Positions 6,024 to 51,565 of a stretch of DNA of 64,000 bases are shown here, piece after piece. Each line of letters opens with the position of its first letter. Position 1 is the first letter of the stretch. The notes below the pieces were generated by a model. The model was not told the DNA's origin. It made no database searches and was given only the letters and a program-made list of their open reading frames with translations. Made by a program: the position numbers and the translations under genes. Source of the DNA: Glandiceps talaboti (taxonomy: Eukaryota > Hemichordata > Enteropneusta > Spengelidae); the NCBI RefSeq assembly GCF_964340395.1, contig NC_135560.1, positions 18,029,098 to 18,093,097 on the forward strand. Direction: 5' to 3'.

Positions 6024-6960
6024 ATGAATAATTCATTTTTTGGTTGACTATACATTATTACCATAGATTTCATAGAATCCTTAACCCTGATATAGTACAG
6101 TTATTATATAATCCAATTTTGCATGAGTACAAAAAACATTATGTAATGCGAGAATGAATGTTTGTTGACATTGGATTCATAGTTTATTCATAACATAATA
6201 TAATGGTATTAAAATGATCTTATATAATTTTTCATAATTTTGTTGCATGAAAATGGTCAATTTGAAAGAAGAAAAAATTTCAACAGTTTCTATTTATTTT
6301 ATGTCGCAGCTCAACCACTCATCCATGTTTGTTAGTATGTTTTAGTATGTACACAAACATGCCAATTTGCAAGATTGTGAAAATATAATATAATATATTC
6401 ATAATGAAGTCATTTAGTATTAATAATAATAATCTTTTATTTCAATACCTTTAGTAGTGCTGATGATGATAAGGAAGTAAGGTGGTGTGTGAAAAATGAA
6501 TATGGCTATTCAATATTAAGCTGCAATATTTCATTTCCTCTGTTGCTACAAGACATGTATTGTATTAAAGTTGTTCAAGGTTCTTCCAATTACTCATGTT
6601 ATGAATGCATGACAGCTGTGACTTCTCACATACAATTTCAGAGCATCCGTTGCATCTCTTAAAGTCACCTTCCCTTTATCTTATTCACCCCACAGGAAAT
6701 TAGTCAAAGATCCTAGAGTGAAGTTAAAGTATCAGCATATTATCACCAATAGCTTTGTAGAATGTAACCGACTTATGAAATGGTGTCCTGCACCTGATTG
6801 TCCAAACGCTATCAAAGTTAGCTATGTGGATGCAAAACCAGTAACTTGTATATGTGGACATATATACTGGTAAGATATAACTCATTATGCTAATAGGAAG
6901 ACTAATGCAACTTTAAAAATAAATAGGTAAATCTGCACAGATAGCCCCTACAACTCTTAA

Positions 6961-7000
<40 letters not shown>

Positions 7001-10000
7001 GTGTGTGTGCGTGCACACTCATGTATGGTGTCGTGTTGTGCTTGCATGTTGTTTTTTGTGTGTGTGCATGCGTCTCTGGGGTTTAGAAAAATTGAGACAG
7101 AAAAGAAACAAACCAAGCGAATCATTATGGTCAAACTGTGACCACAGTCTCTAATTTCCATGTCATGTAATGACAATAAAATGTCAAATTAAGATTACAA
7201 CAGAAGATCTCAAATCTCTAGATTTTGATTTTATATGGTATAAAAGATAGACCTTGAGTAGATATGTATAAAGTATATGTAAATGGAGATGAAGAAAGTG
7301 TAATTGATGTCAACAATAGACTTTCTGATGACAACAACCAGAAAATAATTAACTTTGTTATAATTCCTGTTTTTAAATACATTTCTATATAAAATATATT
7401 GTAGGGTGTTGTAGAGTTACACTTTGTTCACAGCCTTTGAAACATGGAATAGATTAACATTGAGAGTGGTATATATGTATTTATGTATTTACACAGTGTT
7501 TTTTCTTTCCTCTCAGTTTCAATTGCTCAGAGAATTGGCATGATCCAGTCAAGTGTAAGGTATGTAACACTTTCAAACATCTGTCATATGATCTGTATTT
7601 TTGTTTGATATGCATGATGAAGCTGTAACATATCATATTTTTGTGTCAGTAAAGTTGACTGATGTGTACCTATCTGAAAGAACTGAAAGGGAAGACAGAG
7701 CAAGAAAGAAGGATAAAACAAAACTCGTATACCGTTCCCCAAACTTAACTCTTACAAAAATGTTGGTAGATTACTGATTGTTTCCCAAGTTTATCTCTCT
7801 ACATTAATAAACAACAGACATTGTTAAAGTAATGAAGACCAGGCTATTTCTGAAGATGTACTTGGTAACTTATTACATGATTACTCATTACGAAATATCA
7901 CTTGAGGCCGAGGCAGTATTTCTGCTGAGATTTGGAAACTTTGGTAACTAACAGAGAGGGAGAAATCAGGTTTAGTCTCCCATATGCCGTTGCATAATTT
8001 TCTTTTGGAGTCCTGGTAAAGTGACTAGGGAACTCCAGTAGAATTTACCTACTTGCTGCCCTTAACATAACATTGGTAGGGAACTCAGGTACAATTTACC
8101 TACAAACCACCCCAGCAAAAACACTGATAGATTTATGAAGTTGATCACCACTGTTGACTTTGTGTTTTTTAGTGGCTAAGGAAATGGATTAAGAAATGTG
8201 ATGATGATAGTGAGACATCTAACTGGATTGCAGCTAACACTAAAGAGTGCCCAAAGTGCCATGTGACAATAGAAAAAGATGGTGGCTGTAACCATATGGT
8301 ATGCAGAAATCAGAATTGTAAGGTAAGGTACACTTTCAAGCTATAATTGAAAACAGTTTTTCCATCTATCAAAGTTTAGCTGAGAACCTTTACTGGGTTG
8401 ATCCAAACAGTGTCCTCTGATCACATGTGCTGAGAATACAAATTCAATATTTTACTTTGATGAAGTGTTGGCCATGTCCTTTAATGGTAACTCAGTAAAC
8501 ATGCTGAATTTTAACTCTTGTGGTATTTTGCTTTCCATAGGCTGACTTCTGTTGGGTATGCCTAGGACCATGGGAGCCCCATGGTTCATCCTGGTATAAT
8601 TGTAATCGTTACAATGAAGATGAGGCCAAAAAAGCCAGAGATGCCCAGGAGGTCAGTGTAAGCAAACATTCATTTTATTCCTGCACACACCGTATATTCA
8701 CACAGAACATATACAGAGTTGAGAATTATCATGGTAGACTGAAACATTTAGTCACTTCATTCTACCTTGTTTTATGACAAGATAGGAAGATTCCTTGGTG
8801 ACAAATCTTTCAGTCTGAAAGCATGCAAGTTACTTACAAAATGATCAATGTCATGTGACTTGATCCATGAAAAGAAATATTTGTTGACAGACTGAAAGTC
8901 ATGATTGTCCACGGCCATAGAGAAGACAGCGTGCATCAAAAAGTAAATGATGTGGGCCAGACTTTCTTTTGGTAATCATCGCTACATGCACACACCTTCA
9001 AAAAACACAAGAAAAACTACACATCATACTGAACACCTTGTAATGTTTATGGTCATCATTGGCTAATCTTAGTGTAACAATTTGTTGTTGAAGTTTATTT
9101 CAGGGGTTTATGTAAAAAAATCATGTTAAAGAGTAGAAGGGAGAAAAGAAAGGCCTTCTTAAACTGTGAATGATAAGTTACATGTTTGTATCTTGCTTAC
9201 TACAAGAAACAGTACATATGTAATCTGGTAGTTAGGTCTGTCCAATAAGGTCAGTTATCAGGGAACTTGGAGAAATGTTAAGTTTATTTAGGTTCTGATG
9301 TGGCTCAAGTCAATTTTCCTGATAATTATTTCTATGAGAATTACATTATATGTTATATCAGTAAGGTTATGAATTGACGATGGTTGTCCTGTTCTTCAAG
9401 CTAGGAGTCAAGTGATTCATCAAAATCAGAATGTAGATGATTGCTGTACGAACACAGAGAGTAAGACTGTAGAATAGTGAACTGATTCTATAACAGATAC
9501 ACAGTTTTATTAAAGCTAGGGAGTTTAATTTTGGGTGAGGTCAGAGATAGTAAAAATATTAGACCCTTGAAATGAAGTCAGTTTGTATGGTTAACTATGA
9601 GTTGCCCCACTTTTAATATTTTCCCTACAAAGAAGACTCAAGAAAATTATTTATCAGTCACCCCTTATGTTTAAACTCATGTAAGAAATCTGGCTTGTGT
9701 GACTTGCATCCCTCTTTTTTGTTTCCCTGTGTTTTTTTTTACAGAAATCACGAGCAGCTCTTCAACGTTACTTATTCTATTGCAATCGTTACATGAATCA
9801 TATGCAAAGTTTACGGTTTGAGAATAAGCTATATGCACAAATCAGAGCCAAGATGGAGGAAATGCAGCATCATAACATGTCATGGATAGAAGTGCAATTC
9901 TTGAAGAAAGCTGTCGATGTTCTGTGTCTCTGCAGGCAGACTCTTATGTATACTTATGTATTTGCCTATTATTTAAGAAAGAATAACCAATCTATTATAT

Positions 10001-11629
10001 TTGAGGTAAGTGAACATTTGTTACATGGAAAAACTACTTACAGCACAGGGTGCATTTCACAGTGGCCTTTCCCACATGTTGCTGATGCTGTGTAACATGA
10101 AAATTTTGAATTTGAATGGAATATCCTGCAACATAAATACAGTCATGTAGATTATGCTTCAGACTCTCAGAGTGAATTCTTAACACTTTGCAAATATATT
10201 TCATTTATGGTTGCTGTTATAAATCTAACACTATTCCAATTGTGACAAAAGCTATATTTAACCCATTCAGTACTGAAAACTTTGCCGCCAAAATTATTTG
10301 AACAAAATTCTTGTTTTTATGTAAGTTTTTGGCATATATCAGCTTCATTTTAGACTGGAATTAAAGAAATGTTATTTCGTAATGAAGTAATATTATTATA
10401 ACTATGAAAATTATCATATAAATTGGGTCCCAAAATTATTTAAAACTCGTCTCCAGTCATGAAAGGGTTAATCCAATACCTGTTATTTGAAATCTTAATC
10501 CTGTTATCCCCGTAACACAATTTTTTTGGTCATATCTCAGCTTTGCAAAAATATTTGTGTTCACATTGCAGGAAAATCAGAAGGACCTTGAGAATGCAAC
10601 GGAAACCTTGTCGGAATATTTAGAAAGAGACATTACTCAAGATTCACTAGTAGATATTAAACAAAAAGTGCAAGATAAATATAGGTATGTTTCTAACTAA
10701 AGAGATACAAATAATAGTTTCTTGCCCTTTTATGAAACTGTTCATATATGATTCTATCACACCATGTTGTCTAGAGAGTGATGTTAACAGAGTTGAAGCT
10801 TACGTGAAATGCAGTTCATAGGAAAACATGAATACACTGATATTTTGTCCTTTCATTTTGATATTCAACTCTGGTAATTAAGGCTTTGGTTTACTGAGAT
10901 AGACACAAACTAGAACTATTGTTGTTCGATGTGGTAGATTACACAAATGGTGATAGCGGTTCCTCTGTTGTGTGAATCTAATCACCCTGTGAGCAAGATT
11001 GTGTAAACCTTGGAAGTTCCAAAACAGTACTGTACACTGCAAATATAAGGAACCAGCTTTCAGAGAGCCACCCTAGGCCTACTGAGACTATAATTAAACC
11101 ATCGTCCATTCAATAGCTTATCACTGTTGTATCAACATCCTGTGACATTAGTTTTAGTTTGTGTCTATCTAAAGTTTGTAAACCAAAGCCTTGATTACCA
11201 GAGTAACATATAAAGCTTTACACTGTGAATTGAACAAGTTTGTTATATGAGAGAAGTTTTTATGCATGTGTTCTTTGTGCACAGCAGAAACATTGACAAA
11301 CAAATCTAAATTCCAAGTATTAACACTGAACCCATGACAGTCGGGTCTGCCCTCACTGGACTTCTTGGGAGACAAGTTGATAAAAATTTGCAGAACTACC
11401 CATACCCAGTATGAATAGAGATTACTATGTAAAGTATGATGATGGCGTAACAGTTCACATACACACACACACACACACTATGACACAAACGAACACTTCC
11501 TTTGTTTTACTAGAGGAATTAATTTCAACATTCTCATTATCTTACAGGTATTGTGAAAGTCGGCGCAAGGTATTATTAGAGCATGTGCATGAAGGCTACG
11601 ACAAAGACCTTTGGGAGTACATCGAATAA
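1619..11629 (+). CDS. ARIH1: E3 ubiquitin-protein ligase ARIH1 (ariadne-1, RBR type), 5'-partial, 11 coding exons
   Basis: RBR E3 ligase: it takes ubiquitin from a UBCH7-type E2 onto its own cysteine and passes it to substrate, working with neddylated cullin-RING ligases. Exons: 1619-1762, 2122-2205, 2528-2620, 5083-5138, 6696-6869, 7517-7559, 8173-8322, 8541-8651, 9745-10005, 10572-10684, 11548-11629. They join in phase to 436 codons plus TAA at 11627-11629. In visible numbering, RING1 has C66/C69, C83-x-H85, C88/C91 and C111/C116. An IBR follows (exons 5-6, ending NWHDPVKCK). RING2 (exons 7-8) carries the catalytic Cys at about residue 237 in GGCNHMVC. The helical Ariadne domain ends in [13 protein letters not shown]. 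Adding about 120 missing N-terminal residues gives the usual length, so the C-terminus is complete. The match is strong over the whole visible part. Human ARIH1 is the closest form I know. Confidence 0.97.
3137..4394. mobile_element. Non-autonomous DNA transposon in an ARIH1 intron, 13-bp TIRs, CCTGGAAAA repeats
   Basis: A 1.26 kb insert in the third visible intron of ARIH1. Both ends share the inverted terminal sequence CAGGGTTCGTACA (3137-3149, and its complement at 4382-4394). The same 5 bp, TAAAG, flanks each side (3132-3136 and 4395-4399), a likely short target duplication. Just inside each end are tandem or dispersed copies of CCTGGAAAACC (3154-3250 and 4290-4355). No transposase frame is visible, so it is non-autonomous. 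The superfamily is not decided; the 5-bp flank does not settle it. Confidence 0.7.
5914..6022. repeat. (AT)n microsatellite with a short (GT)n tail
   Basis: Nearly pure AT dinucleotides, broken once by a short ACATACAT run near 5934-5942 and ending in GT repeats at 6010-6022. It lies in the ARIH1 intron 5139-6695. The tyrosine/isoleucine frames across it are not genes. Confidence 0.95.
6963..7010. repeat. (GT)n microsatellite
   Basis: GT dinucleotide run broken by single C-for-T changes, with looser GT-rich sequence to about 7068. It lies in the ARIH1 intron 6870-7516. Confidence 0.95.
11458..11478. repeat. Short (CA)n microsatellite
   Basis: About ten CA dinucleotides, 70 bp upstream of the last ARIH1 coding exon. 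Confidence 0.9.
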
Positions 11630-18200: not shown

Positions 18201-21200
18201 GTAAAACCTTGAACTTGAAATAGGGGCATTGCTACTTCCTGTATAATTTTGAAATGTACTCCTTGAACTTGAAATAGGGGGCATTGGTACTTCCTGTATC
18301 ATTTTGAATGTACACCTTGAACTTGAAATGGGGGCATTGGTTTTTCCTGTATCATTTTGTCATTTTGAAATGTACAAGGAAAGAGACCCAAAATGATGGG
18401 CCAGTCAAGTGACACAAAGAAGGAAAGGAAATACATGCAAAACTACCAATATTAAAGTTTCAATATAGTTGCAATGTAATCAAACCACAAAAAATTTTGA
18501 TCGGCTGAAAATGATTTTTTTTAATGTGAGCTCTAGAGCACAAAATCACAGATGGGGTGTGGATAGTCATGCTGATACTTTTGGTCATGCATAACAGGTA
18601 TCATGTGTGCTTCTACAGTGTACAGTGATATATGTCATCATGTCATCCCACTGTGGCTTTGTTTAGTCACTTTGACTGGCAAGTGAGATTATACAGCATG
18701 GAGAAAATTTCCATTACTTTTTACAAATTGTTTCACATAGACACATTGTTGAAATGAATACCAAAAAGCACAGTTGTCAACATTGTTGGTGGTTTTGGAG
18801 TTTGTTTTTTTATTCTCTATATTTTAAGATTTACTTATGGTTCCACATCTTTCTTGTCTCCTCACTGTCTTCCAATGTAAACACAGCTGATACATCACCC
18901 TGTGAGTCCTGTCACATCAAAGTAATAACCATAACATTTTAGTAGCAATTAAGTTTTTATGTACTTATTTTGAATTGTAAACTTGATGATTTTGAATTCT
19001 ATCAACTTCAAGTTTATTTGTGGATTTGTTCATTACAAAAAAATATTGCAATTGGAGAGGAGATGAAATAGCGAGCTCTCATTGACAGTTTACTAATGTT
19101 TACCAAATGTTACATCACAAATGTATTCTTCATCGCCATGTGATTTTAATCTAGAAGTCAAGTTCAAACACTCACAACATACAACATTTCGGTCAGAATG
19201 GACTTTTTATGTTCATTTCTGATATTTTACATAACAATGTTTCATGCTTAAAATGGAGAGCTCTATAATACTGCATAGAAATGGTTTCCAGTACTGTACA
19301 AGGAGTTTCATAGTTACCTTTGATGGGGGTTGACTCAGTGTCCATCTACTAATCCTGGCAAAGCCATGTTGGGGACCTAGGTCCCAGGGTCCAAAATTTG
19401 CTGGGAAAAAAAATGAGAAAAAGTAAATTCTGTCAGGGGGTTTTTATGACACAATCTAAGCTACACAATGGTGGAAAGCAATTTGAAATGATGGCAGATG
19501 GTATGGCTTTGAATATTTGTGAAGCAATAATCAGTTACTCAAATGTTTCTCCTCAATCAACACATACATGTAGTGTAAGTATCACCAGCATAATTCCCTT
19601 TCTTGTCTATTCTCAGGTTCCTTTGTTGAAGTTAATCAGTCACAGATACATAAACTCAGCTGGGGAGTGCAAATGACAAGGTTGATTTTACTGATTAATT
19701 AACACATGTAAAAATATCATCAATTTGAAGACTGTCCTTCACATGTGCCAAAACTTAATAAATTGGTATTTTGTTAGTCACTGAGTACATAGATATGTAC
19801 AATTACTTATACATAGATATGTACAATTACTTATACATAGATATGTACAATTACTTACACATAGATATATACAATTACTTATACATAGATATATACAATT
19901 ACTTACACATAGATATATACAATTACTTATACATAGATATGTACAATTACTTAGACATAGATATGTACAATTACTTATACATAGATATGTACAATTACTT
20001 ATACATAGATATGTACAATTACTTATACATAGATATGTACAATTACTTATACATAGATATATACAATTACTTATACATAGATATATACAATTACTTATAC
20101 ATAGATATGTACAATTACTTATACATAGATATGTACAATTACTTATACATAGATATATACAATTACTTATACATAGATATATACAATTACTTATACATAG
20201 ATATGTACAATTACTTACACATAGATATGTACAATTACTTAGACATAGATATGTACAATTACTTATACATAGATATATACAATTACTTATACATAGATAT
20301 GTACAATTACTTATACATAGATATGTACAATTACTTATACATAGATATGTACAATTACTTAGACATAGATATGTACAATTACTTATACATAGATATGTAC
20401 AATTACTTATACATAGATATGTACAATTACTTATACATAGATATGTACAATTACTTATACATAGATATGTACAATTACTTATACATAGATATATACAATT
20501 ACTTATACATAGATATGTACAATTACTTATACATAGATATGTACAATTACTTATACATAGATATGTACAATTACTTAGACATAGATATGTACAATTACTT
20601 ATACATAGATATGTACAATTACTTATACATAGATATGTACAATTACTTATACATAGATATGTACAATTACTTAGACATAGATATGTACAATTACTTATAC
20701 ATAGATATATACAATTACTTATACATAGATATGTACAATTACTTATACATAGATATGTACAATTACTTATACATAGATATGTACAATTACTTATACATAG
20801 ATATGTACAATTACTTATACATAGATATGTACAATTACTTACACATATATATGTACAATTACTTATACATAGATATGTACTTTTACTTAGACATAGATAT
20901 ATACAATTACTTATACATAGATATGTACAATTACTTATACATTCTAGTAGATATGTACTTTTACTTATACATAGATATGTACTTTTACTTATACATAGAT
21001 ATGTACAATTACTTATACATTCTAGTAGATATGTACTTTTACTTATACATAGATATGTACTTTTACTTATACATAGATATGTACAATTACTTACACATAG
21101 ATATGTACAATTACTTAGACATAGATATGTACAATTACTTATACATAGATATGTACAATTACTTATACATAGATATGTACAATTACTTACACATAGATAT

Positions 21201-23558
21201 GTACAATTACTTAGACATAGATATGTACAATTACTTAGACATAGATATGTACAATTACTTATACATAGATATGTACAATTACTTACACATAGATATATAC
21301 AATTACTTATACATAGATATGTACAATTACTTACACATAGATATATACAATTACTTATACATAGATATGTACAATTACTTATACATAGATATATACAATT
21401 ACTTATACATAGATATGTACAATTACTTATACATAGATATGTACAATTACTTACACATAGATATGTACAATTACTTATACATAGATATGTACAATCACTT
21501 ATACATAGATATACATAGATATATACAATTACTTACACATAGATATATACAATTACTTATACATAGATATGTACAATTACTTAGACATAGATATGTACAA
21601 TTACTTATACATAGATATATACAATTACTTATACATAGATATATACAATTACTTAGACATAGATATGTACAATCACTTATACATAGATATATACAATTAC
21701 TTATACATAGATATGTACAATTACTTATACATAGATATGTACAATTACTTATACATAGCTATGTACAATTACTTATACATAGATATATACAATTACTTAT
21801 ACATAGATATGTACAATTACTTACACATAGATATGTACAATTACTTATACATAGATATGTACAATTACTTATACATAGATATGTACAATTACTTAGACAT
21901 AGATATGTACAATTACTTATACATAGATATATACAATTACTTATACATAGATATGTACAATTACTTATACATAGATATATACAATTACTTATACATAGAT
22001 ATATACAATTACTTATACTTACGAAAAACTACAGGAATACCTCCTCTGATTGCTTTTTTGTTATCATAAACAGCTTTATTACTGTAATCAAATCAAACAA
22101 TAGAATGTTGGCATATGGATAATATGTAACAAAGAAAAGTACAAACAGTAAAAAAATTTTTAGAAATGAACACAATTTTGTCCACAGAGAATCTTTGTAT
22201 AAAGTGTAGGAACTCTGGTTGATCTACTGAAGTAGTATAGAATCAGTCTTGCTCAGTCAGGCTGGAGAAACTGACCGGTCTATCTCAATGTTTGAGCTCA
22301 CCAATCAAGTTTCCAATTTGCATTTCAGTGTGTCATCATACCATGGCATAAAAACTGTCAATGATTTTTATTTAATTGAAAATCAAACATGTATGAAATA
22401 TGTAGTTTTCTAAATATAATCTGTGTGTGATAGAATGGCATCTTTTTACTCTCTGTATTACCCTGTGCGAAAACCAAACAGAAAATTGTGGCAACAAAAG
22501 TAGGTGTTCAACATTGATCAAATATCCGGATATCTCAAAGAAGCAAAGAAAAAAAAGTTGCCAGCATAGGCGAAGGAGAAAAAAAATAATTCACAGGCAA
22601 ACAGGTGGCAAAAAAAATAATGACTCTCCACCAATCTTCCAAGCCCCCCCCCCAGGATATCGAATGGTCTACCCCTTTTAAGTGAAAGTTCATTGATTTG
22701 TTACAGCGCCCTCAACCCATCAAATATCTCCATAACCTCTCTGGAGAGTCGGAGTAAAATAATAATGAATTACAGTAACGAATCTTGCGAAATTTAATGA
22801 GCCAAATTATTTTTCAAAAACCTAACACACCCAAAAATTACAATACACAACACAATTTATCATACTTTCATCAATTAAATGATGGCAGAAATTCGTAATC
22901 TGCATGGCATTGGAATCTGATGGAATACCCGCTTTACCTGATGAATATCATTTCTTCTCCATTACACTTCCATGATATCACAGTTGCACCTATGAGAGAG
23001 TAAAATATCTTTTTTTTAAATCTAGAGTACGATATGATAGAAATAAATTCATTAAGACTCAAGAGAGAGGGACATCATTATTTTGCCGAGTTCAACACTG
23101 TGCAAAACCATTAGCTTCCGGGGGGTAGGCTCTCTAGTACGACTGCTATCCAATACAATGATGTATTCATCACATATTCACTAAATCTACCCATATTCCT
23201 CCATTATATGTTTATATTTTTTATAAACTCCTCAATTACTTGCCATATTTTTCATAAAGACACGCGAACATGTGTACTAAAGCTGCAACTTCCAGTATTG
23301 TGACATAAACAATCCCACTGTGCGACCCCCGTACCACGACCGTCAACAGCATTGTTTTTGACGTGTCATTGCTGTGGTGGTAGTACTACTAGTACTAGTG
23401 AGTGTGGTTAACCTCACTACAACGCTAACTACATCTATTTCCATACGAGCAACCTCTCGATGTTCTAGCATTCGACACTTCTACTCACCGTGTAGATGCA
23501 CTGTCACTGACGTATTGGCACTCCGCTCCAAAACTACCAAATCAGACGAACTAGCCAT
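15226..23558 (-). CDS. Glucose-6-phosphate 1-epimerase (D-hexose-6-phosphate mutarotase), 10 exons, complete
   Basis: Galactose-mutarotase-fold enzyme predicted to interconvert alpha and beta anomers of glucose 6-phosphate (YeaD / yeast Ymr099c family, EC 5.1.3.15), in the cytosol since no signal peptide is seen. Exons on the minus strand: 23558-23489, 22989-22938, 22081-22023, 19400-19318, 18908-18835, 18169-18099, 17817-17711, 16609-16545, 15918-15827, 15386-15226. Total 834 nt, 277 aa, every junction in phase. Family marks: HGATVISWKCNGEEMIFI (22-39), NKKAIRGGIPVVFPNFGPW (48-66), GPQHGFARISRW with predicted catalytic His72, and a C-terminal block VVWNPWEEKAMAMSDF then MLCVEAGYAASRYKLSPG with predicted catalytic Glu252. 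Length matches the family (about 290). The start ATG at 23558 is the first in the short first exon. Intron 3 carries a 2.2 kb minisatellite, and introns 5 and 7 carry short tandem repeats. Confidence 0.95.
17130..17396. repeat. Degenerate pentanucleotide array (GATAY)n
   Basis: About 265 bp of five-base units, mainly GATAC and GATAT with GATGY and AATAC variants, in intron 7 of the epimerase gene. Because 5 is not a multiple of 3, reading frames across it give repeating Ser-Tyr-Ile/Arg patterns that are not proteins. Confidence 0.9.
17622..17701. repeat. 28-bp unit repeated three times beside a 5' splice site
   Basis: Three copies of a 28-bp unit whose core is CAGGACGGCTGAGCCTATCT, differing at a few bases. 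They end about 10 nt from the donor of epimerase exon 7 (exon end at 17711), so on the gene strand the array opens almost at the start of intron 7. Confidence 0.9.
18212..18376. repeat. About 54-bp unit repeated three times near an acceptor
   Basis: Three tandem copies beginning CCTTGAACTTGAAAT and containing GGGGCATTG and TTCCTGTAT, slightly diverged; the third has a small internal duplication. They lie 40-200 nt upstream (gene sense) of epimerase exon 6, where a branch point might sit. Confidence 0.85.
19786..22018. repeat. Minisatellite, 24-bp unit, about 93 copies, in epimerase intron 3
   Basis: Head-to-tail array of ACATAGATATGTACAATTAC plus TTAT (24 bp). Variation is limited: TGTAC or TATAC, and TTATAC, TTACAC or TTAGAC. 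Diverged units with CTTTTAC and TTCTAGTAG occur at 20880-21065, and a partial extra unit near 21505 shifts the frame. The unit is a multiple of three and lacks stops on the + strand, so it gives a false frame of 783 codons reading MYNYLYID over and over. On the gene strand the array starts within 6 nt of the 5' splice site of exon 3. Confidence 0.97.
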
Positions 23559-23738: not shown

Positions 23739-24020
23739 CATAACGACAAACAAATAGCAAAAACAAACTGAGAACATACAGTTCATTCAAGACTCACTTC
23801 AAGCTTGAAGAATACTTAACTAAGTTGAATAACAGTAAACGTAATGTTGTGTCGTTTCAGATTGGGCATACACAATCTAAGGATAGAAAAAGGAAGACAC
23901 TTAAAATTTTTCCTAGAGGAAAGAACGTGTATAATTTGTAAGTCAAATAATGTAGAAGATGAGGCACACTTTGTATTAACCTGCCCACAATATCACCATC
24001 ATAAACAAACACCTCTGTGA
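23739..24020 (+). pseudogene. Remnant of a non-LTR retrotransposon (LINE) ORF2 C-terminus
   Basis: Translation by eye gives two adjoining blocks. The first reads RTYSSFKTHFKLEEYLTKLN (about 23773-23832) and breaks by a one-base shift near 23845. The second reads CRFRLGIHNLRIEKGRHLKF, then LEERTCIICKSNNVEDEAHF and VLTCPQY, ending in a stop near 24018. The CxxC...H...C pattern and the RLGIHNL...GRH block are typical of the region after the reverse transcriptase in many animal LINEs. No RT domain or 5' part is present, so it is a dead 3' fragment. The clade is not assigned. Confidence 0.75.
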
Positions 24021-25737: not shown

Positions 25738-28569
<2,832 letters not shown>

Positions 28570-32500: not shown

Positions 32501-32777
32501 CCGATAGTTCGAGTCGTGCATTGGTGGTAAAAGGGGACATCTTATAGTTATACCTCCATAGATGAAAGAAAACAAGCCGCTATTAAACAAGCTCCAGTTT
32601 CAGCAAAAAAATCTATTCTTTCTCAAAAAGTACATTGACGTTGAATCTTTAGTTTATAGTTTAGGTACTGAAACCAGGCAGTATAATTTAGTAAAACGGA
32701 ATAACAGTTTCTTTTGGTCATTGCTCACCTTTGGCCGTGACACCAGTATCTCGTGACACTTTGAACTTTGACTTGGG

Positions 32778-32992
32778 TTTCTTGTTATACAGTAATTTAA
32801 CAGTAAGCTAGAGGGTTTGATGTTGAAGGTCAAAGGTCATATCTGCCTGCTTCCAATGTCTGCTGTCTGTGTCTGCCTGCGACTAAGTTGAAGCAGGCAG
32901 ACACAGGCAGCAAACAATGGAAGCAGGCAGAAATGACCTTTGACCTTGAACATCGAACCCTCTAGCTTACTGTCAAATTACTGTATAGCAAG
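32778..32992. repeat. Hairpin formed by two copies of the inverted-repeat terminus
   Basis: The bases from CTTGTTATACAGTAATTT (about 32780) through GCTAGAGGG, GGTCAAAGGTCA and TCTGCCTGC return inverted at 32889-32992. The left end of the giant element thus carries an extra, diverged, reversed copy of its own terminal 105 bp, giving a hairpin of about 215 bp. The right end has only one copy. Confidence 0.85.
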
Positions 32993-33380
32993 AAACAAGG
33001 ACTTTACCTTTCTTTATCAGTTTCACAGACTTTCAGAAGTGATAAATCATAGAAGTACCATAATATAAGACATAAATGAAAACCTGAAGTAACTTTTAAA
33101 AAAAAAATATTCCTATGCAATGTGATATTTACATGTTGTAAGTATTAACCAAACAATTATTTTCTCCCAATGCAAGAGTACTGTGTATTCACCATGCTTC
33201 AAAATACAGCTCTATGAAATTTGTATTATTAAAATTGGTTGTACTTAAATATTGTCTTTTACACCCTTCAAAGAGTTCACTATAATAATGGGAATGTTAC
33301 TAATTCATGGAAAGATGGGGTGCATTATGGGAAATTTCACTATTTCATACACAATTGAAATTCACTTTTCTCAGAAACCA

Positions 33381-36300
33381 TTGAGTGTGCACACTATTCA
33401 CGTATTAGGCCTAGTACACTACTATATGAGCTATCAAATGATATATGTGACTTTATATAAATTTCGTCTTTCATACCCAGCAGACACACTTTTAATTAAG
33501 AAATTATAGGAATATTTACAAATTTTGATGAAACTGCACATGCGTTTTCTTGCAAACAATTGAGTGTGCACATTATTCATATAGTAGGCTTAATAAAGTT
33601 ATATATAAGCTATGACATGATATATTTCACTTTTGATAGATTTCGTCGTTCACACCCAGCAGACACAGAAACATGTGGTGCATTCTGGGAAATTTCATTA
33701 TTTCATACACAAATCAAAATCATTTTTCTAGCAAACCATTGAGTGTGCACACTATTCATGTATTAGGCCTAGTACACTACTATATGAGCTATTCAAGAAT
33801 ATATGTGACTTTATATAAATTTCGTCTTTCATACCCAGCAGACACACCTTCATTCAGGAAATTATAGGAATATTTACAAATTTTGAGGAAACTGCACATG
33901 CGTTTTCTTGCAAACAATTGAGTGTGCACATTACTCATATAGTAGGCTTAATACAGTTATATATAAGCTATAACATGATATATTTCACTTTTGATAAATT
34001 TCATCGTTGATACCCAGCAGACACAGAAAGATGTGATGCATTATGGGATATTTCATTATTTCATACAAAAATCAAATTCACTTTTCTAGCAAACCATTGA
34101 GTGTGCACACTATTCATGTATTAGGCCTAGTACACTACTATATGAGCTATTCAAGAATATACGTGACTTTATATAAATTTCGTCTTTCATACCCAGCAGA
34201 CACACTTTTATTTAGGAAATTATAGGAATATTTACAAATTTTGATGAAACTACACGTGCATTTTCTGGCAAACAATTGAGTGTGCACACTATTCACCTAT
34301 TAGGCCTAGTACAATATCATATCAGCTATTATATGATATATGTGACTTTATATAAATTTTGTCTTTCATACCCAGCAGACACACTTTTATTTATACAATT
34401 ATAGCAATATTTACAAGTTTTGACGAAACTGCACATGTGTTTTCTTGCAAACAATTGAGTGTGCACATTATTCATATAGTAGGCTTAATACAGTTATATA
34501 TAAGCTATGACATGATATATTTCACTTTTGATAAATTTCATCGTTGATACCCAGCAGACACAGAAAGATGTGATGCATTATGGGAAATTTCACTATTTCA
34601 AACACAAATCAAATTCACTCTTCTAGCGAACCATTGAGTGTGCACACTATTCACGTATTAGGCCACGTACACTACTATATGAGCTATTATATGATATATG
34701 TGACTTTATATAAATTTCTTCTTTCATACCCAGCAGACACACGTACATGTACACCTTCATTCAGGAAATTATAGCAATATTTACAAATTTTGGGTAAACT
34801 GCACATGCGTTTTCATGCAAACAATTGAGTGTGCACATTATTCATATAGTAGTGTTAATAAAGTTATATATAAGCTATAACATGATATATTTCACTTTTG
34901 ATAAATTTCGTCATTGATACCCAGCAGACATAGAAAGATGTGATGCATTATGGGAAATTTCACTATTTCAAACACAAATCAAATTCACTTTTCTAGTAAA
35001 CCATTGAGTGTGCACACTATTCACATATTAGGACTAGTACACTACTATATGAGCTATTGTATGATATATGTGACTTTATATAAATTTCGTCTTTCATACC
35101 CAGCAGACACACTTTTATTTAGGAAATTATATAGGAATATTTACAAATTTTGATGAAACTACACACGCGTTTTCTTGCAAACAATTGAGTGTGCACACTA
35201 TTCACCTATTAGGCCTAGTACAATATCATATCAGCTATTATATGATATATGTGACTTTATATAAATTTTGTCTTTCATACCCAGCAGACACAGAAAGATA
35301 TGGTGCATTCTGGGAAATTTCATTATTTCATACACAAATGAAATTCACTATTCGAGCAAACCATTGAGTGTGCACACTATTCACGTATTAGGCCTAGTAC
35401 ACTACTATATGAGTTATTAAATGATATATGTTACTTTATATAAATTTCGTCTTCCATACCCAGCAGACAGACTTTTATTCATACAATTATAGGAATATTT
35501 ACAAATTTTGATGAACTGCACATGCGTTTTCTTGCAAACAATTGAGTGTGCACATTATTCATATAGTAGGCTTAATACACTTATATATAAGCTATAACAT
35601 GATATATTTCACTTTTGATAAATTTCGTCGTTCACACCCAGCAGACACAGAAAGCTGTGATGCATTATGGGAAATTTCACTATTTCATACACAAATGAAA
35701 TTCACTTTTCTAGCAAGCCATTCAGTGTGCACACTATTCACGTATTAGGCCTAGTACACTACTATATGAGCTATTATATGATATATGTGACTTTATATAA
35801 ATTTCGTCTTTCATACCCACCAGACACACTTTTATTTATACAATTATAGGAATATTTACAAATTTTGATGAAACTACACATGCGTTTTCTTGCAAACAAT
35901 TGAGTGTGCACACTATTCACCTATTAGGCCTAGTACAATATCATTTTAGCTATTATATGATATATGTGACTTTATATAAATTTCGTCAGTGATACCCAGC
36001 AGACACAGAAACATATGGTCAGTCTGGGAAATTTCATTATTTCATACACAAATTAAATTCACTTTTCTAGCAAACCATTGAGTGTGCACACTATTCACGT
36101 AGTAGGCCTAGTACACTACTATATCAGCTTTCAAATGATATATGTGACTTTATATAAATTTCATCTTTCATACCCAGCAGACACACTTTTATTTAGGAAT
36201 TTAATTATAGGAATATTTACAAATTTTCATGAAACTACATGTGCGTTTTCTTGCAAACAATTGAGTGTGCACACTATTCATCTATTAGGCCTAGTACATT
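33381..36300 (+). repeat. 179-bp satellite, rightward arm, about 16 units
   Basis: Units start TTGAGTGTGCACACTATTCA at 33381, 33560, 33739, 34097, 34276, 34455 and so on, a steady 179-bp spacing. Two main types tend to alternate, giving a 358-bp dimer. Type A has TTAGGCCTAGTAC and GTGACTTTATATAAATTT; type B has GTAGGCTTAATA and TTTCACTTTTGATAAATTT. All units carry the 10-bp palindrome GTGTGCACAC or a close variant, and TACCCAGCAGACACA. The short frames here (about 60 codons, reading LSVHTIHVLGLVHYYMSY) are side products of repetition. Confidence 0.95.
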
Positions 36301-36311
36301 AGCTGATATAA

Positions 36312-39300
36312 TATTGTACTAGGCCTTATAGGTGAATAGTGTGCACACTCAATGGTTTGCTAGAAAAGTGGGTTTGATTTGTGTATGAAATAGTGAAATT
36401 TCCCATAATGCACCACATCTTTCTGTGTCTGCTGGGTATGAAAGACAAAATTTATCAAAAGTGAAATATATCATGTTATAGCTTATATATAGCTTTATTA
36501 AGCCTACTATACGAATAGGGTGCACACTCAATTGTTTGCAAGAAAACGCACATGAAGTTTCAACAAATTAGTAAATATTGCTATAATTTCCTGAATGAAG
36601 GCGTGTCTGCTGGGTATAAAAGACAAAATTTATTTAAAGTCACATGTATCATATGATAGCTGATATAGTATTGTACTATACCTAATACGTGAATAGTGTG
36701 CACACTCAATGGTTCTCTAGAAAAGTGTGTTTGATTTGTGTATGAAATAGTGAAATTTCCCAGAATGCACCACATGATTCTGTGTCTGCTGGGTATCAAT
36801 GACGAAATTCATGAAAAGTGAAATATATCATGTTATAGCTTATATATAACTTTATTAAGCCTACCAAACGAATAGTGTGCACACTCAATTGTTTGCAAGA
36901 AAGCGCACATGAAGTTTCACCAAATAAAATATTGCTATAATTTCCTAAATAAAGGCGTGTCTGCTGGGTATAAAAGACGAAATTTATTTAAAGTCACCTA
37001 TATCATATGATAGCTGATATAGTATTGTACTAGGCCTAATAGGTGAATAGTGTGCACACTCAATTGTTTGCCAGAAAATGCACGTGTAGTTTCATCAAAA
37101 TTTGTAAATATTCCTATAATTTCCTAAATAAAAGTGTGTCTGCTGGGTATGAAAGACGAAATTTATATAAAGTCACGTATATTCTTGAATAGCTCATATA
37201 GTAGTGTACTAGGCCTAATACATGAATAGTGTGCACACTCAATGGTTTGCTAGAAAAGTGAATTTGATTTTTGTATGAAATAATGAAATTTCCCATAATG
37301 CACCACATCTTTCTGTGTCTGCTGGGTATGAAAGACAAAATTTATGAAAAGTGAAATATATCATGTTATAGCTTATATATAGCTTTATTAAGTCTACTAT
37401 ACGAATAGTGTGCACACTCAATTGTTTGCAAGAAAACACACATGAAGTTTCACCAAATTAGTAAATAATGCTATAATTTCCTAAATAACAGCATGTCTGC
37501 TTGGTATAAAAGACGAAATTTATTTAAAGTCACCTATATCATATAATAGCTGATATAATATTGTACTAGGCCTTATAGGTGAATAGTGTGCACACTCAAT
37601 GGTTTGCTAGAAAAGTGGGTTTGATTTGTGTATGAAATAGTGAAATTTCCCAGAATGCACCACATCTTTCTGTGTCTGCTGGGTATAAACGACGAAATTT
37701 ATCAAAAGTGAAATATATCATGTTATAGCTTATATATAACTGTATTAAGCTTACTATATGAATAGTGTGCACACTCAATTGTTCGCAAGAAAACGCATGT
37801 GCAATTTCAGCAAAATTTGTAAATATTCCTATTATTTTATAAATAAAAGTGTGTCTGCTGGGTATGAAACACGAAATTTATATAAAGTCACATATATCAT
37901 TTAATAGCTCATATAGTAGTGTACTAGGCCTAATACATGAATAGTGTGCACACTCAATGGTTTACTAGAAAAGTGAATTTGATTTGTGTTTGAAATAGTG
38001 AAATTTCCCATAATGCATCACATCTTTCTGTGTCTGCTGGGTATCAACGACAAAATTTATCAAAAGTGAAATATATCATGTCATAGCTTATATATAACTG
38101 TATTAAGCCTACTATATGAATAATGTGCACACTCAATTGTTTGCAAGAAAACACATGTGCAGTTTCGTCAAAACTTGTAAATATTGCTATAATTGTATAA
38201 ATAAAAGTGTGTCTGCTGGGTATGAAAGACAAAATTTATCAAAAGTGAAATATATCATTTAATAGCTCATATAGTAGTGTACTAGGCCTAATACATGAAT
38301 AGTGTGCACACTCAATGGTTTGCTTGAAATGTGCATTTGATTTGTGTATGAAATAGTGAAATTTCCCAGAATGCACCACATCTTTCTGTGTCTGCTGGGT
38401 ATCAACGACGAAATTTATCAAAAGTGAAATATATCATGTCATAGCTTATATATAACTTTATTAAGCCTACTATGCGAATAGTGTGCACACTCAATTTTTT
38501 GCAAGAGAACGCATCTGCAGTTTCATCAAAACTTGTAAATATTGCTATAATTGTATAAATAAAAGTGTGTCTGCTGGGTATGAAAGACAAAATTTATATA
38601 AAGTCACATATATCATATAATAGCTGATATGATATTGTACTAGGCCTAATAGGTGAATAGTGTGCACACTCAATTGTTTGCCAGAAAATGCACGTGTAGT
38701 TTCATCAAAATTTGTAAATATTCCTATAATTTCCTAAATAAAAGTGTGTCTGCTGGGTATGAAAGACGAAATTTATATAAAGTCACGTATATTCTTGAAT
38801 AGCTCATATAGTAGTGTACTAGGCCTAATACATGAATAGTGTGCACACTCAATGGTTTGCTAGAAAAGTGAATTTGATTTTTGTATGAAATAATGAAATT
38901 TCCCATAATGCACCACATCTTTCTGTGTCTGCTGGGTATGAAAGACAAAATTTATGAAAAGTGAAATATATCATGTTATAGCTTATATATAGCTTTATTA
39001 AGTCTACTATACGAATAGTGTGCACACTCAATTGTTTGCAAGAAAACACACATGAAGTTTCACCAAATTAGTAAATAATGCTATAATTTCCTAAATAACA
39101 GCATGTCTGCTTGGTATAAAAGACGAAATTTATTTAAAGTCACCTATATCATATAATAGCTGATATAATATTGTACTAGGCCTTATAGGTGAATAGTGTG
39201 CACACTCAATGGTTTGCTAGAAAAGTGGGTTTGATTTGTGTATGAAATAGTGAAATTTCCCAGAATGCACCACATCTTTCTGTGTCTGCTGGGTATAAAC

Positions 39301-41730
39301 GACGAAATTTATCAAAAGTGAAATATATCATGTTATAGCTTATATATAACTGTATTAAGCTTACTATATGAATAGTGTGCACACTCAATTGTTCGCAAGA
39401 AAACGCATGTGCAATTTCAGCAAAATTTGTAAATATTCCTATTATTTTATAAATAAAAGTGTGTCTGCTGGGTATGAAACACGAAATTTATATAAAGTCA
39501 CATATATCATTTAATAGCTGATATAATATTTTACTAGGCCTAATACATGAATAGTGTGCACACTCAATGGTTTACTAGAAAAGTGAATTTGATTTGTGTT
39601 TGAAATAGTGAAATTTCCCATAATGCATCACATCTTTCTGTGTCTGCTGGGTATCAACGACAAAATTTATCAAAAGTGAAATATATCATGTCATAGCTTA
39701 TATATAACTGTATTAAGCCTACTATATGAATAATGTGCACACTCAATTGTTTGCAAGAAAACACATGTGCAGTTTCGTCAAAACTTGTAAATATTGCTAT
39801 AATTGTATAAATAAAAGTGTGTCTGCTGGGTATGAAAGACAAAATTTATCAAAAGTGAAATATATCATTTAATAGCTCATATAGTAGTGTACTAGGCCTA
39901 ATACATGAATAGTGTGCACACTCAATGGTTTGCTTGAAATGTGCATTTGATTTGTGTATGAAATAGTGAAATTTCCCAGAATGCACCACATCTTTCTGTG
40001 TCTGCTGGGTATCAACGACGAAATTTATCAAAAGTGAAATATATCATGTCATAGCTTATATATAACTTTATTAAGCCTACTATGCGAATAGTGTGCACAC
40101 TCAATTTTTTGCAAGAGAACGCATCTGCAGTTTCATCAAAACTTGTAAATATTGCTATAATTGTATAAATAAAAGTGTGTCTGCTGGGTATGAAAGACAA
40201 AATTTATATAAAGTCACCTATATCATATAATAGCTGATATGATATTGTACTAGGCCTAATAGGTGAATAGTGTGCACACTCAATTGTTTGCCAGAAAATG
40301 CACGTGTAGTTTCATCAAAATTTGTAAATATTCCTATAATTTCCTAAATAAAAGTGTGTCTGCTGGGTATGAAAGACGAAATTTATATAAAGTCACGTAT
40401 ATTCTTGAATAGCTCATATAGTAGTGTACTAGGCCTAATACATGAATAGTGTGCACACTCAATGGTTTGCTAGAAAAGTGAATTTGATTTTTGTATGAAA
40501 TAGTGAAATTTCCCATAATGCATCACATCTTTCTGTGTCTGCTGGGTATGAACGACAAAATCTATCAAAAGTGAAATATATCATGTCATAGCTTATATAT
40601 AACTGTATTAAGCCTACTATATGAATAATGTGCACACTCAATTGTTTGCAAGAGAACGCATCTGCAGTTTCATCAAAACTTGTAAATATTGCTATAATTG
40701 TATAAATAAAAGTGTGTCTACTGGGTATGAAAGACAAAATTTATATAAAGTCACATATATCATATAATAGCTGATATGATGTTGTACTAGGCCTAATAGG
40801 TGAATAGTGTGCACACTCAATTGTTTGCAAGAAAACGCATGTGCAGTTTAAAGTACATCAAAATTTGTAAATATTCCTATAATTTCCTGAATGAAGGTGT
40901 GTCTGCTAGGTATGAAAGACAAAATTTATATAAAGTCACATATATCATATAATAGCTCATATAGTAGTGTACTAGGCCTAATACGTGAATAGTGTGCACA
41001 CTGAATGGCTTGCTAGAAAAGTGAATTTGATTTGTGTTTGAAATAGTGAAATTTCCCATAATGCATCACATCTTTCTGTGTCTGCTGGGTATGAACGACG
41101 AAATCTATCAAAAGTGAAATATATCATGTTATAGCTTATATATAACTGTATTAAGCCTACTATATGAATAATGTGCACACTCAATTGTTTGCAAGAAAAC
41201 GCATGTGCAGTTTCCTCAAAACTTGTAAATATTGCTATAATTGTATAAATAAAAGTGTGTCTGCTGGGTATGAAATTTATATAAAGTCACATATATCATA
41301 TAATAGCTCATATAGGAGTGTACTAGGCCTAATAGGTGAATAGTGTGCACACTGAATGGTTTGCTAGAAAAATGATTTTGATTTGTGTATGAAATAATGA
41401 AATTTCCCAGAATGCACCATATGTTTCTGTGTCTGCTGGGTATCAACGACGAAATTTATCAAAAGGGAAATATAACATGTTATAGCTTATATATAACTGT
41501 ATTAAACCTACTATATGAATAATGTGCACACTCAATTGTTTGCAAGAAAACGCACGTGCAGTTTCATCAAAATTTGTAAATATTCCTATAATTTCTTAAT
41601 TAAAAGTGTGTCTGCTGGGTATGAAAGACGAAATTTATATAAAGTCACATATATCATTTGATAGCTCATATAGTAGTGTACTAGGCCTAATATGTGAATA
41701 GTGTGCACACTGAATGGTTTGCGAGAAAAG
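36312..41730 (-). repeat. 179-bp satellite, leftward arm, about 30 units
   Basis: The same A and B units as the rightward arm, in reverse orientation, about twice as many. The excess is partly explained by a 1,610-bp block (nine units) present twice in full and a third time in part. Confidence 0.95.
37040..40500 (-). repeat. 1,610-bp higher-order repeat, two full copies plus a partial third
   Basis: Sequence at about 37040-38650 returns at 38650-40260 almost base for base (for example CCAGAAAATGCACGTGTAGT at a constant 1,610-bp offset), and the first part comes a third time at 40260-40500. Few differences are seen, such as a different short block near 37900 against 39510. 1,610 bp is nine 179-bp units within a base. 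Confidence 0.93.
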
Positions 41731-42212
41731 TGAATTTCAATTGTGTATGAAATAGTGAAATTTCCCATAATGCACCCCATCTTTCCATGAATTAGTAACA
41801 TTCCCATTATTATAGTGAACTCTTTGAAGGGTGTAAAAGACAATATTTAAGTACAACCAATTTTAATAATACAGATTTCATAGAGCTGTATTTTGAAGCA
41901 TGGTGAATACACAGTACTCTTGCATGGGGAGAAAATAATTGTTTGGTTAATACTTACAACATGTAAATGTCACATTGCATAGGAATATTTTTTTTTTAAG
42001 TTACTTCGGGTTTTCATTTATGTCTTATATTATGTTACTTCTATGATTTATCACTTCTGAAAGTCTGTGAAACTGATAAAGAAAGGTAAAGTCCTTGTTT
42101 CTTGCTATACAGTAATTTGACAGTAAGCTAGAGGGTTCGATGTTCAAGGTCAAAGGTCATTTCTGCCTGCTTCCATTGTTTGCTGCCTGTGTCTGCCTGC
42201 TTCAACTTAGTC

Positions 42213-42900
42213 TGCCTGCGTCAACATAGTATGGTATTAGTACGTACTGTAAATACTTTAACTAGACGAATCAGGGTTATGCACGACATCTTGTATGATT
42301 ACGAGGTATGTAAGCGTCTCGTTTCGTTATTAGTTGACAATATGTCGTACATGCGTAGCAATTCACCGTGTAACAATGAGAGTGAACCATGGTGTACATG
42401 TACTGCTAAGTGTACATGTAATCATGGATCTAGTATCTATTATTGTTATTGAGATGATAGATCCATGTTGTAACACACCAATGCACAGTCCCGCTAGGCG
42501 GATTGTGACCAATGCTTTGTAACATTAATTAGACTCTCTTACAGTCCTCGGAACATCGCATCGCCAAAAGGGTTGTTTTGTATGTACCGCATAATTGTAC
42601 TCAAATATCAGGGCATCGCAGTAACGTACACGGAGCATTGCAGTAACACGTCAACAAATGATATGTGGTCGATGAGGGCCACAGTTCAAGGACGTTCAAA
42701 TACAGTTAGGGGTGAGCCATTTGATTTCTGGTGGGGGGGGGAGGAGGATTTTGAGGAAAGAAAATTGTCGACAGGTGAAGGAGGATTTGATCCCTTGAGA
42801 AGAAAAAATAGTCAAAGAGACATAAAGTAAAAAAAAATTGTTGTGATGTGTGCTGAAGTCAGCTAAATAAGGGAAGGGGACTTTCGTTAATCCCGAAGGT
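42213..42900. other. Gene-free interval
   Basis: No coding frame or known repeat is recognised, apart from a G run near 42733-42741. Confidence 0.4.
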
Positions 42901-43578
42901 GACGGATCACTTCGTCCCAATTTGAACTCGTCCCATTTCAAGTCGTCCCACTCAACTCGTCCAATTTTCACCTCGCCCCAATTTCAACTCACCCCATTTT
43001 CAACTCGCCCAAACCCTTTATAATATAATTTACCTGTGCATATATGAAATCGAAGCTAGTAGTACTCAGTTTGGAGGGTCTGTGGTATCTCTAATGAAGT
43101 ACCAATTGCGCTGTAAACACATACTATACTTGCGTTACTAGGGAGAGGAGACACGTCTCCAAAACCCGTACGCGCGGAAGTCGTATTAAAGCGTGTCAGT
43201 CACTAATATTCTCCCTGGTTATTATCATTATCATTTCTTATTTGGGTTGTAAACATTAAGTCCTAATGTGAAAAGTGATATTCCATGACTGAAAGCTGCT
43301 GTGCTAGTATAAGTTCGAGATCTACCAAACACTTAGCCAAAACCCACACCACTTTCTGCTACGAAATGTTACATTAGCTATACGCTTCAACTGGCCACGT
43401 AGGTAAAATCATGTAAATTTTCCGGTCACAGTACTTCGAGTCCATGTATCGTTTAGATTTATAAACGTTTCCTAGTGTTGTTGGGGCGAGTTGAAAATGG
43501 GACGAGTTAAAAATGGGGCGAGTTGAAAATGGGGCGAGTTGAAATGGGACGAGTTGAAAATGGGACGAAGTGAATCGC
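42901..43578. mobile_element. Foldback-like element with 16-bp minisatellite ends
   Basis: The left end (42901-43013) is a run of degenerate units like CAACTCGTCCCATTTT. The right end (43482-43578) is the inverted form, units like GGGGCGAGTTGAAAAT. The outermost bases pair (GATCACTTCGTCCCA against the complement of GGGACGAAGTGAATC). About 470 bp of single-copy sequence lies between. No transposase is present and no target duplication is clear. Confidence 0.8.
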
Positions 43579-49767: not shown

Positions 49768-51565
49768 TTAAATTGTTATCATTGTAATTCCAATGGCGAC
49801 TGCAGTGAAAGTGACTACTACGATGACACTTTGAGTAGCCGGATGTGCACCATTACATAGGTTATCCACACAGCAGTAAGTACACGGTCCAGTACCCAGG
49901 AAAGTTTCACATTTCTCACTACAGGAGGATGTACATCCTTTACTTGTCGACATTAGATCATCCAAAAGATAAGTATCCACTTTCTGAAACAAATATGGGG
50001 AGAATATAGACAGTTACTTGAAGGACGTTTGGCCGTGTACATGTGCTCGGGTTCAGCTCATCTGTAAGGTATGCCGTGACGGGCGCTCTCACACATCGGT
50101 CAAACCTTCTCAATGAGAGGGTCTCGATGAGGGGTAATTGCGCCATCTTGGTTAGAGTTAAATCTATTTTGTCCAGGCCAATGTCTATGTAAAGCTAGGA
50201 GATGATGGTGATAATATAAGATTACGAAAACTTATTGTAACTTTAATTTACGAACAATTTTGGGCTTCTTCCGACGCCCCTTTCAAAAGAAGAAATAGGT
50301 CTTGCCATGATTGTTGGCTGTGAATCTGACGAGCCCTCTTGACAGATTGTCGTGCAAAAAGCGAATTGAATTGATCCATACGTACTTTCTGTTATATAGA
50401 AATCCAGTTAAAAGTAGTTTCACAGTGATGTGGCAAGTTAGTATCACCGTAGTCTGCATGGCCAACGTTATCGGGATGGGCTTATATAAGTACACTGAGG
50501 CAAGGAACGATACAATCTGATTAAAATCCGATGTAGATGTCGGCTAATCGTTCATTGCTATTTTACCTTCGTCATTTTGCCCTCTACGTAGAGGAGACGA
50601 TCAGGCTAAAAAATTTAAACATGTACCAAGAAGGTCAATTCAGGCAAAATAACGAAGGTAAAATAGCAATGAACGATTAGCCGACATCTACATCGGATTT
50701 TAATCAGATTGGGAACGATATTACCGTACACATGTATCAATTATTATTTTTTCCGTGAAATCAAAGTGTCATAGTCTTTGAAATCGAAGTGAGTGTGATT
50801 AAGTTCCAGGCTTGTACAACTCCATGAGAGATGAGTGCACACCAGTTGCATTCCATTTCTTACCTGACAATAGCCATCACATTCTACTATATCATGATTG
50901 GAACACACTGCGGAAAACTTGTCGGTCGTCAAAGCCGTACATCGATAACATTCATTACCTGCATTAACATATATAAACAAGCAAAAAAAATCAACATACC
51001 TAGAAAATACGAGACAAGAACAACGTTTTCGGTATAGAATGGAAAACTCATGTCACTTATACTAAGTTATAGATTATCATTTCTATGACAACACAGAAGG
51101 GGCCACGTACGTTAAATATACGGTTATTGTAAATCCGCCTGACGGTGTCGAAAGTTGGGAATACTTTATATTTGTACAAATAAAACTGTGACAAACATAA
51201 TTTATAACATGTTGTGAAGAACTATCAAGGAATGTGATGATACAGGTTACTCACGATATGCTAAGACAGACCGTCACGTTATATCTTTAATACAGATGGA
51301 ACGGGTGGGGGGGGGGTGCATTCTTAAATTTACTTGTCGACATCAGATCAAATAGGAGTAATTTACACCAGGAATGCGGATGGTAACTATTGAAAAGTGA
51401 CAATCGCATGTGGACAAAGTTTACAAGTGTGTACGTGTTAATTCTAAATATCTACAATATATAATGGTATTAAATCAGTTTACCGTCTGTCACTCTCCAA
51501 ATAACAGCTAGTATCAGCATGAGACGCGGATCCAACCTCAACAGGGTAAACTGTACCAATGACAT
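49768..51565 (-). CDS. Ly6/uPAR (three-finger) domain protein, GPI-anchor type, 3 exons
   Basis: Small secreted, cell-surface three-finger protein; partner unknown. Exons on the minus strand: 51565-51484, 50958-50864, 49983-49768; 393 nt, 130 aa, in phase. A hydrophobic leader (RLMLILAVIW) is followed by the domain start GNECYRCT, 12 cysteines in all, and the closing CCVDNLCNG typical of Ly6 (CCxxDLCN). The tail (SVIVVVTFTAVAIGITMITI) is hydrophobic to the last residue, as expected of a GPI-addition signal. The three-exon layout (leader, fingers 1-2, finger 3 plus tail) is the usual one. Intron 2 contains a MITE (50513-50711). Met1 is chosen because it opens the only leader in phase; a later Met (residue 16) could also serve. 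Confidence 0.85.
50513..50711. mobile_element. MITE (family A, copy 2), 199 bp, exact 9-bp target duplication
   Basis: Same family as 24461-24660: begins CAATCTGATTAAAATCCGAT, arms pair over about 80 bp, with a different centre. Flanked on both sides by GGAACGATA (50504-50512 and 50712-50720), an exact 9-bp duplication. It lies in intron 2 of the Ly6 gene. Confidence 0.93.

Follow-up and report, generated by a model that had tools for sequence, protein, structure and literature searches.

The TU elements of sea urchins and the FB elements of Drosophila have long foldback repeats with short internal tandem repeats, and we know of no 179-bp satellite in either. The closest plan to the one described below that we found in print is that of Tetris, a foldback transposon of Drosophila virilis, in which an outer flanking domain is followed by a ~220-bp tandem array of variable number and which has no coding capacity (PMC4079207). 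Complete Tetris copies have target-site duplications of 8–9 bp, the array can grow into satellite DNA, and Tetris is related to the non-autonomous element DAIBAM (PMC4079207). In Tm1, a Mutator/Foldback family of Meloidogyne, 45 of 53 complete elements have duplications of 8–10 bp, most commonly 9 bp, and the family includes members with a putative transposase as well as non-coding ones (PMC3169594). Muta1 of Aedes aegypti, a Mutator-like element (MULE) that has been called a type 2 Foldback element, has 8–9 bp duplications and subterminal tandem repeats (PMC5225508), and MULE target duplications as a group are 8–11 bp (PMC6446971). Galileo belongs to the P superfamily, with 7-bp duplications, repeats of up to ~1.26 kb and a THAP-domain transposase (PMC3688188, PMC3573991).

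We analyzed a 64,000-nucleotide stretch of Glandiceps talaboti DNA (the window) that contains a palindrome of comparable design. The palindrome is, at a probability of about 0.84, a foldback-type DNA transposon that is non-autonomous and most likely belongs to the Mutator-like (MULE)/Foldback group. In each of its terminal inverted repeats, a flanking domain of ~430 bp precedes an extended array built of a 179-bp satellite, and the two arrays are placed head to head. The likeness to Tetris considered here is that of plan, and lies in the flanking domain plus array, the duplication length and the non-coding interior. Tetris differs in that its terminal repeats reach 1,735 bp and that it has inner and middle domains, whereas the arms here are unequal, at 3.4 kb (left) and 5.9 kb (right), and have no middle domain between them. 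Tm1 is similar in its composite inverted repeats with internal repeats and in its commonly 9-bp duplication, but its internal repeat is ~14 bp and its 7-bp terminal motifs are asymmetric. Muta1 differs in having a 12-bp repeat, a 145-bp terminal repeat and known autonomous copies. The Galileo F group also has long foldback-like repeats, with ~210-bp tandem repeats whose number is unequal between the ends; Galileo differs in its 7-bp duplications, its shorter repeats (up to ~1.26 kb) and its encoded THAP-domain transposase. Word searches of the literature that combined a 179-bp satellite with terminal inverted repeats, or foldback palindromes with satellite arrays, found no papers. The element would be an unusually long representative of a known foldback plan, and its sequence family may already be named.

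Plan and extent of the palindrome

The original prediction of a 9.3-kb palindrome proved to be correct in that both inverted arms, 32881–36306 and 36307–42212, are present. Its termini were refined, almost to the exact base, from 32881 and 42212 in the first reading to the positions given in Table 1. From each end inward, the single-copy flanking domain is followed by the 179-bp array. Mirrored single-copy ends had been predicted and are present on both sides, but at ~430 bp per side and not the ~500 bp that had been proposed. The two opposed arrays had been placed as meeting near 36306, in agreement with the junction that we located at about 36300–36307, and neither the sequence nor the Tandem Repeats Finder (TRF) rows revealed a unique middle domain between the arrays at this centre junction.

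Table 1. Coordinates of the element, its parts and its insertion site (positions in the window)
Feature	Position	Strand	Description and basis
Whole element	32882..42211	.	9,330 bp, ACTAAGTTGAAG ... CTTCAACTTAGT; arm alignment and target-site analysis
Left flanking single-copy domain of terminal inverted repeat	32882..33310	+	Base-by-base alignment
Left array, 179-bp satellite, A/B types	33311..36301	+	17 monomers, innermost partial; TRF, monomer segmentation, recount
Centre, head-to-head array junction	36299..36320	.	Sequence, TRF rows
Right array	36302..41784	-	31 monomers, innermost partial; holds 1,610-bp duplication (R10-R18 and R19-R27); TRF, segmentation, recount
Right flanking domain of terminal inverted repeat	41785..42211	-	Inverted match of the left one
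Left target-site duplication copy	32873..32881	+	CTGCCTGCG, 9 bp; adjoins left terminus exactly
Right target-site duplication copy	42212..42220	+	CTGCCTGCG, 9 bp; adjoins right terminus exactly
Older relative's terminal repeat, left part, interrupted by element	32777..32881	+	32873-32881 doubles as left target duplication
Older relative's last 10 bp	42221..42230	+	TCAACATAGT; gap-free continuation once the 9-bp duplication is collapsed

The flanking domains of the two arms are 98.4% identical in inverted orientation, as determined from a 450-bp alignment (32881–33330 against 42212–41765) that reaches into the array. The longest perfect paired runs in the mirrored single-copy part were 176, 90 and 51 bp. 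Chance is an implausible source of the palindrome. This is because, in ungapped searches of each neighboring region on its own, the longest inverted pairs among those listed reached only 89 bp in 1–32776 and 115 bp, a TA simple repeat, in 42213–64000. The element has the hallmarks of the foldback class in that very long inverted terminal repeats fill most of its length and tandem repeats, the 179-bp arrays, lie behind an outer flanking domain.

Within the element there was no open reading frame of at least 110 aa, and judged by that absence no transposase was seen inside it. Frames of at least 50 aa that overlap the element numbered 57, and 55 of these sit in or run into the arrays. Judging from its reading frames, the element appears to contain no gene. 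The whole window had no Rfam matches at the gathering threshold. An exact-pattern scan of IMG/VR with two patterns returned 0 matches for each, as did a scan of prokaryote contigs with one pattern, and the surroundings appear to resemble ordinary animal genes.

Several other features were observed in the window. An Ariadne-domain reading frame (PF19422) lies at 9703–10092 on the plus strand and a carboxylesterase-family gene (PF00135) of at least two coding pieces at 25738–28569 on the minus strand. At 44.6 kb there is a gamma-butyrobetaine-hydroxylase-like frame, and the element is situated ~2.4 kb upstream of it. A 24-bp satellite of ~92 copies (19786–22018) is open as long frames on both strands, which is as expected since its period is a multiple of three.

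Insertion site and an older relative

The 9-bp sequence CTGCCTGCG abuts the element on both sides as a perfect match, and is the only direct 9-mer common to the 209-bp flanks on either side. No 9-bp match was obtained in 200,000 random boundary pairs taken from the same flanks. The element thus has, as foldback transposons do, a target-site duplication at its ends, and its empty site can be restored. That restoration is possible based on the left flank, in which 32777–32880 is 92.3% identical to 42097–42200, i.e., it is a copy of the element's right end. When the element and one CTGCCTGCG are removed, the left flank runs gap-free into TCAACATAGT, and this reconstitutes an older relative's end; the site would then read ...TGTCTGCCTGCGTCAACATAGT uninterrupted. 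This restored end is identical to the element's own right end at 105 of 115 positions (an alternative count, 105/118, takes in three further columns, all mismatches, that lie before 32777). When 0 to 19 bases of the right flank were dropped and the result was scored against the element's own end, dropping 9 gave the best score (176), followed by 8 (171), a measure that is not independent of the 9-bp direct repeat. The restoration of the empty site indicates that the whole element most likely integrated, as a single unit, into a related one, and from the sequence its position is most likely one nested inside the end of that older relative.

The terminal 104 bp of the element is therefore present in the window as a third copy, in the older relative, whose end supplies the window with one more copy of the terminal ~115 bp. 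Non-autonomous relatives of Muta1 share ends and not interiors (PMC5225508), and the older copy here appears to do likewise. A search of 1–32776 for the other end of the older relative did not find it, as nothing beyond short words matched; no sequence on the plus strand of that region came closer than 4 mismatches to the 16-base terminus of the newer copy, or than 5 to that of the older one. The 9 bases that follow the older copy's right end, ATGGTATTA, recur at 6203 and 51464. No terminus follows them at 6203, and the site at 51464 is situated past the right end. The best match to a terminus, at 23819, lacks a preceding ATGGTATTA.

Two further observations were made in and near this site. 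The sequence AGGTCAAAGGTCA, which we take to be a DR1 nuclear-receptor-like site, is found in all three window copies of the transposon end (32827, 32934 and 42147) and once elsewhere (56561). A second, small foldback-like structure with ends TCACTTCGTCCC and GGGACGAAGTGA occupies 42907–43573. It has 16-bp repeats of the TCGTCCCATTTTCAAC type at 42912–43012 that are inverted at 43482–43568, and no clear target duplication was seen for it by eye.

Monomers of the two arms and the rival readings

Tandem Repeats Finder placed the two arrays at 33311–36298 and 36300–41729. Their monomers are of two main types, A and B, which are ~31% apart; type B includes a sub-type, C. The A and B monomers mostly alternate, giving a repeat unit of 358 bp. 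From the outside inward, the two arms share the order of types in their first eight monomers (A B A B A C B A). The outermost pair, L01 and R01, are 98% alike and the second monomers of both arms are 95% alike. Overall, the left arm and the outermost 3.4 kb of the right arm are 84.3% identical, in comparison to 98.4% at the ends. The palindrome is weakest at its centre, where the innermost monomers L17 and R31 are of different type and only 67% alike in register, and the opposed arrays consequently pair better when shifted. A hairpin would pair best at the outer ends, with 728 bp at 97%.

The right arm is enlarged by the 1,610-bp tandem duplication, the copies of which are 98.4% identical across 2,141 bp. 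Monomer L06 is identical to R18, while L05 and L07 both have 98.9% identity to right-arm monomers other than their register partners. A tree was built from 46 of the 48 monomers, omitting the partial L17 and R31 at the centre. The two arms were interleaved in it, with 15 changes of arm label against a mean of 13.4–13.5 for shuffled labels. No arm-specific clustering was present in this tree, as the number of changes was equal or lower in 475 and 478 of 500 shuffles, and this interleaving speaks against two independently evolved arrays. From these patterns we infer that the arms probably share a common origin and that monomers have since been exchanged, lost and duplicated. BLAST searches with 4 of the 48 monomers (E up to 0.01) revealed no monomer-like sequence elsewhere in the window.

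Both a foldback transposon and a fold-back duplication had been put forward for this palindrome originally, and the exact target duplication, the restored empty site and the further, older copy of the terminal repeat all favor the transposon. A fold-back, or inverted, duplication would have arisen in break repair rather than by transposition, through inverted copying of a satellite array beside one solo terminal repeat. Such an event would be in keeping with arms that agree in order and sequence at their outer ends and with a structure that has neither a transposase nor a middle domain. However, it predicts no target duplication, and both the 9-bp duplication and the restored empty site were found; nor does it explain why both ends of the palindrome coincide exactly with a transposon terminus. 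We consider it improbable for the locus as it now stands, and note that it may explain the first origin of the two-armed plan, before transposition. An assembly or sequencing fold-back, caused by a read through a hairpin adapter or a template switch, is still less probable. Head-to-head arrays are likely places for misassembly, which is a point in its favor, but an artefact of this kind is expected to have near-identical arms, whereas those observed have 17 and 31 monomers. The differences of the arms in length, monomer order and sequence (84.3% against 98.4% at the ends) argue against a fold-back read, and an artefact would not give a target duplication. It is possible that an otherwise true element contains a collapsed or misplaced array. 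The chance insertion of two separate elements or arrays head to head is similarly remote: the different types of the innermost monomers fit with it, but both outer ends are the same terminal repeat at 98.4% identity and one target duplication brackets the whole.

A reading with clearly greater weight than these, though we think it the less probable assignment, is that the element has the plan described above but belongs to the P/Galileo superfamily (7-bp duplication), or to another superfamily, rather than to the MULEs. The same empty site is obtained if the ends are GACTAAG/CTTAGTC and the duplication is 7 bp (TGCCTGC), or if the ends are asymmetric and the duplication is 8 bp, and Galileo F copies hold their ~210-bp tandem repeats inside the terminal repeats (PMC3573991). 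Against this, the extra terminal C of the 7-bp reading is absent from the older copy, and duplications of 8–11 bp, often 9 bp, have been described for MULE/Foldback elements (PMC3169594, PMC5225508, PMC6446971). We prefer 9 bp to 7 or 8 bp for two reasons: it makes the ends symmetric, and in the older copy the terminal ATAGT is followed by A and not by C. The 9-bp duplication suggests mobilization of the Mutator/Foldback (MULE) type, a superfamily assignment that draws mainly on the length of the duplication. Two other classes were rejected. TA does sit at the ends, as in a Tc1/mariner-like duplication, but the restored empty site needs a collapse of 9 bp. Helitrons have no inverted ends and no target duplication, and the element has both.

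Taken together, the mirrored composite ends, the tandem arrays, the target duplication and the restored empty site make it most likely that the palindrome is a foldback DNA transposon that moved as a unit. Under this preferred reading, a transposase encoded elsewhere would have recognized the terminal ~115 bp common to the element and its older relative, and the element would have moved as a unit by cut and paste. The arrays may have lengthened through unequal exchange, and the two arms may also have exchanged sequence with one another.

Satellite growth, shared motifs and hairpin RNA

The locus is a clean single-locus case of satellite-length arrays in both arms of an apparent transposon that moved as a unit. 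In this respect it agrees with the idea, put forward for Tetris, that satellite DNA can originate from foldback elements. With arms that are long, unequal and apparently exchanging, it is a case for studying how arrays grow inside mobile DNA, and also one for studying the stability of palindromes near genes.

We noted that short motifs are shared between the element's ends and its monomers. The sequence GCAGGCAG occurs twice in the element terminus. There are 44 exact copies of GCAGACA for the 48 monomers (15 in the left arm and 29 in the right), in the same orientation as at the terminus, and AGCAGAC is the second-longest monomer run conserved at ≥95%. The flanking domain of Tetris has a 37-bp stretch in common with its monomer, whereas here the similarity between the two was non-significant, with the best local score for the whole domain reached by 11% of 200 shuffles. 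The corresponding scores were reached by 50% of shuffles for the outer 110 bp and by 13% for the outer 45 bp. These results weaken the idea that GCAGACACAG, which is common to the flanking domain and the monomer, exceeds chance, and the idea that monomers carry a terminal binding motif was likewise not significant against the shuffles.

The internal repeats of Galileo bind its transposase (PMC3688188), from which a similar role for the 179-bp repeats is possible as a hypothesis. A more extended, and rather doubtful, suggestion is that the element is a mobile satellite nursery. That is, most monomers would carry GCAGACA as a putative transposase-binding box, so that array growth would strengthen mobilization, disperse the satellite and create a hairpin locus of several kb as a possible source of small RNAs. 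In folding predictions, carried out without a shuffled control, the duplex of a read-through transcript had an energy of -853.9 kcal/mol for the outer 500/500 nt and -361.1 kcal/mol for the centre 800 nt. A hypothetical transcript of this kind could pair into a long duplex.
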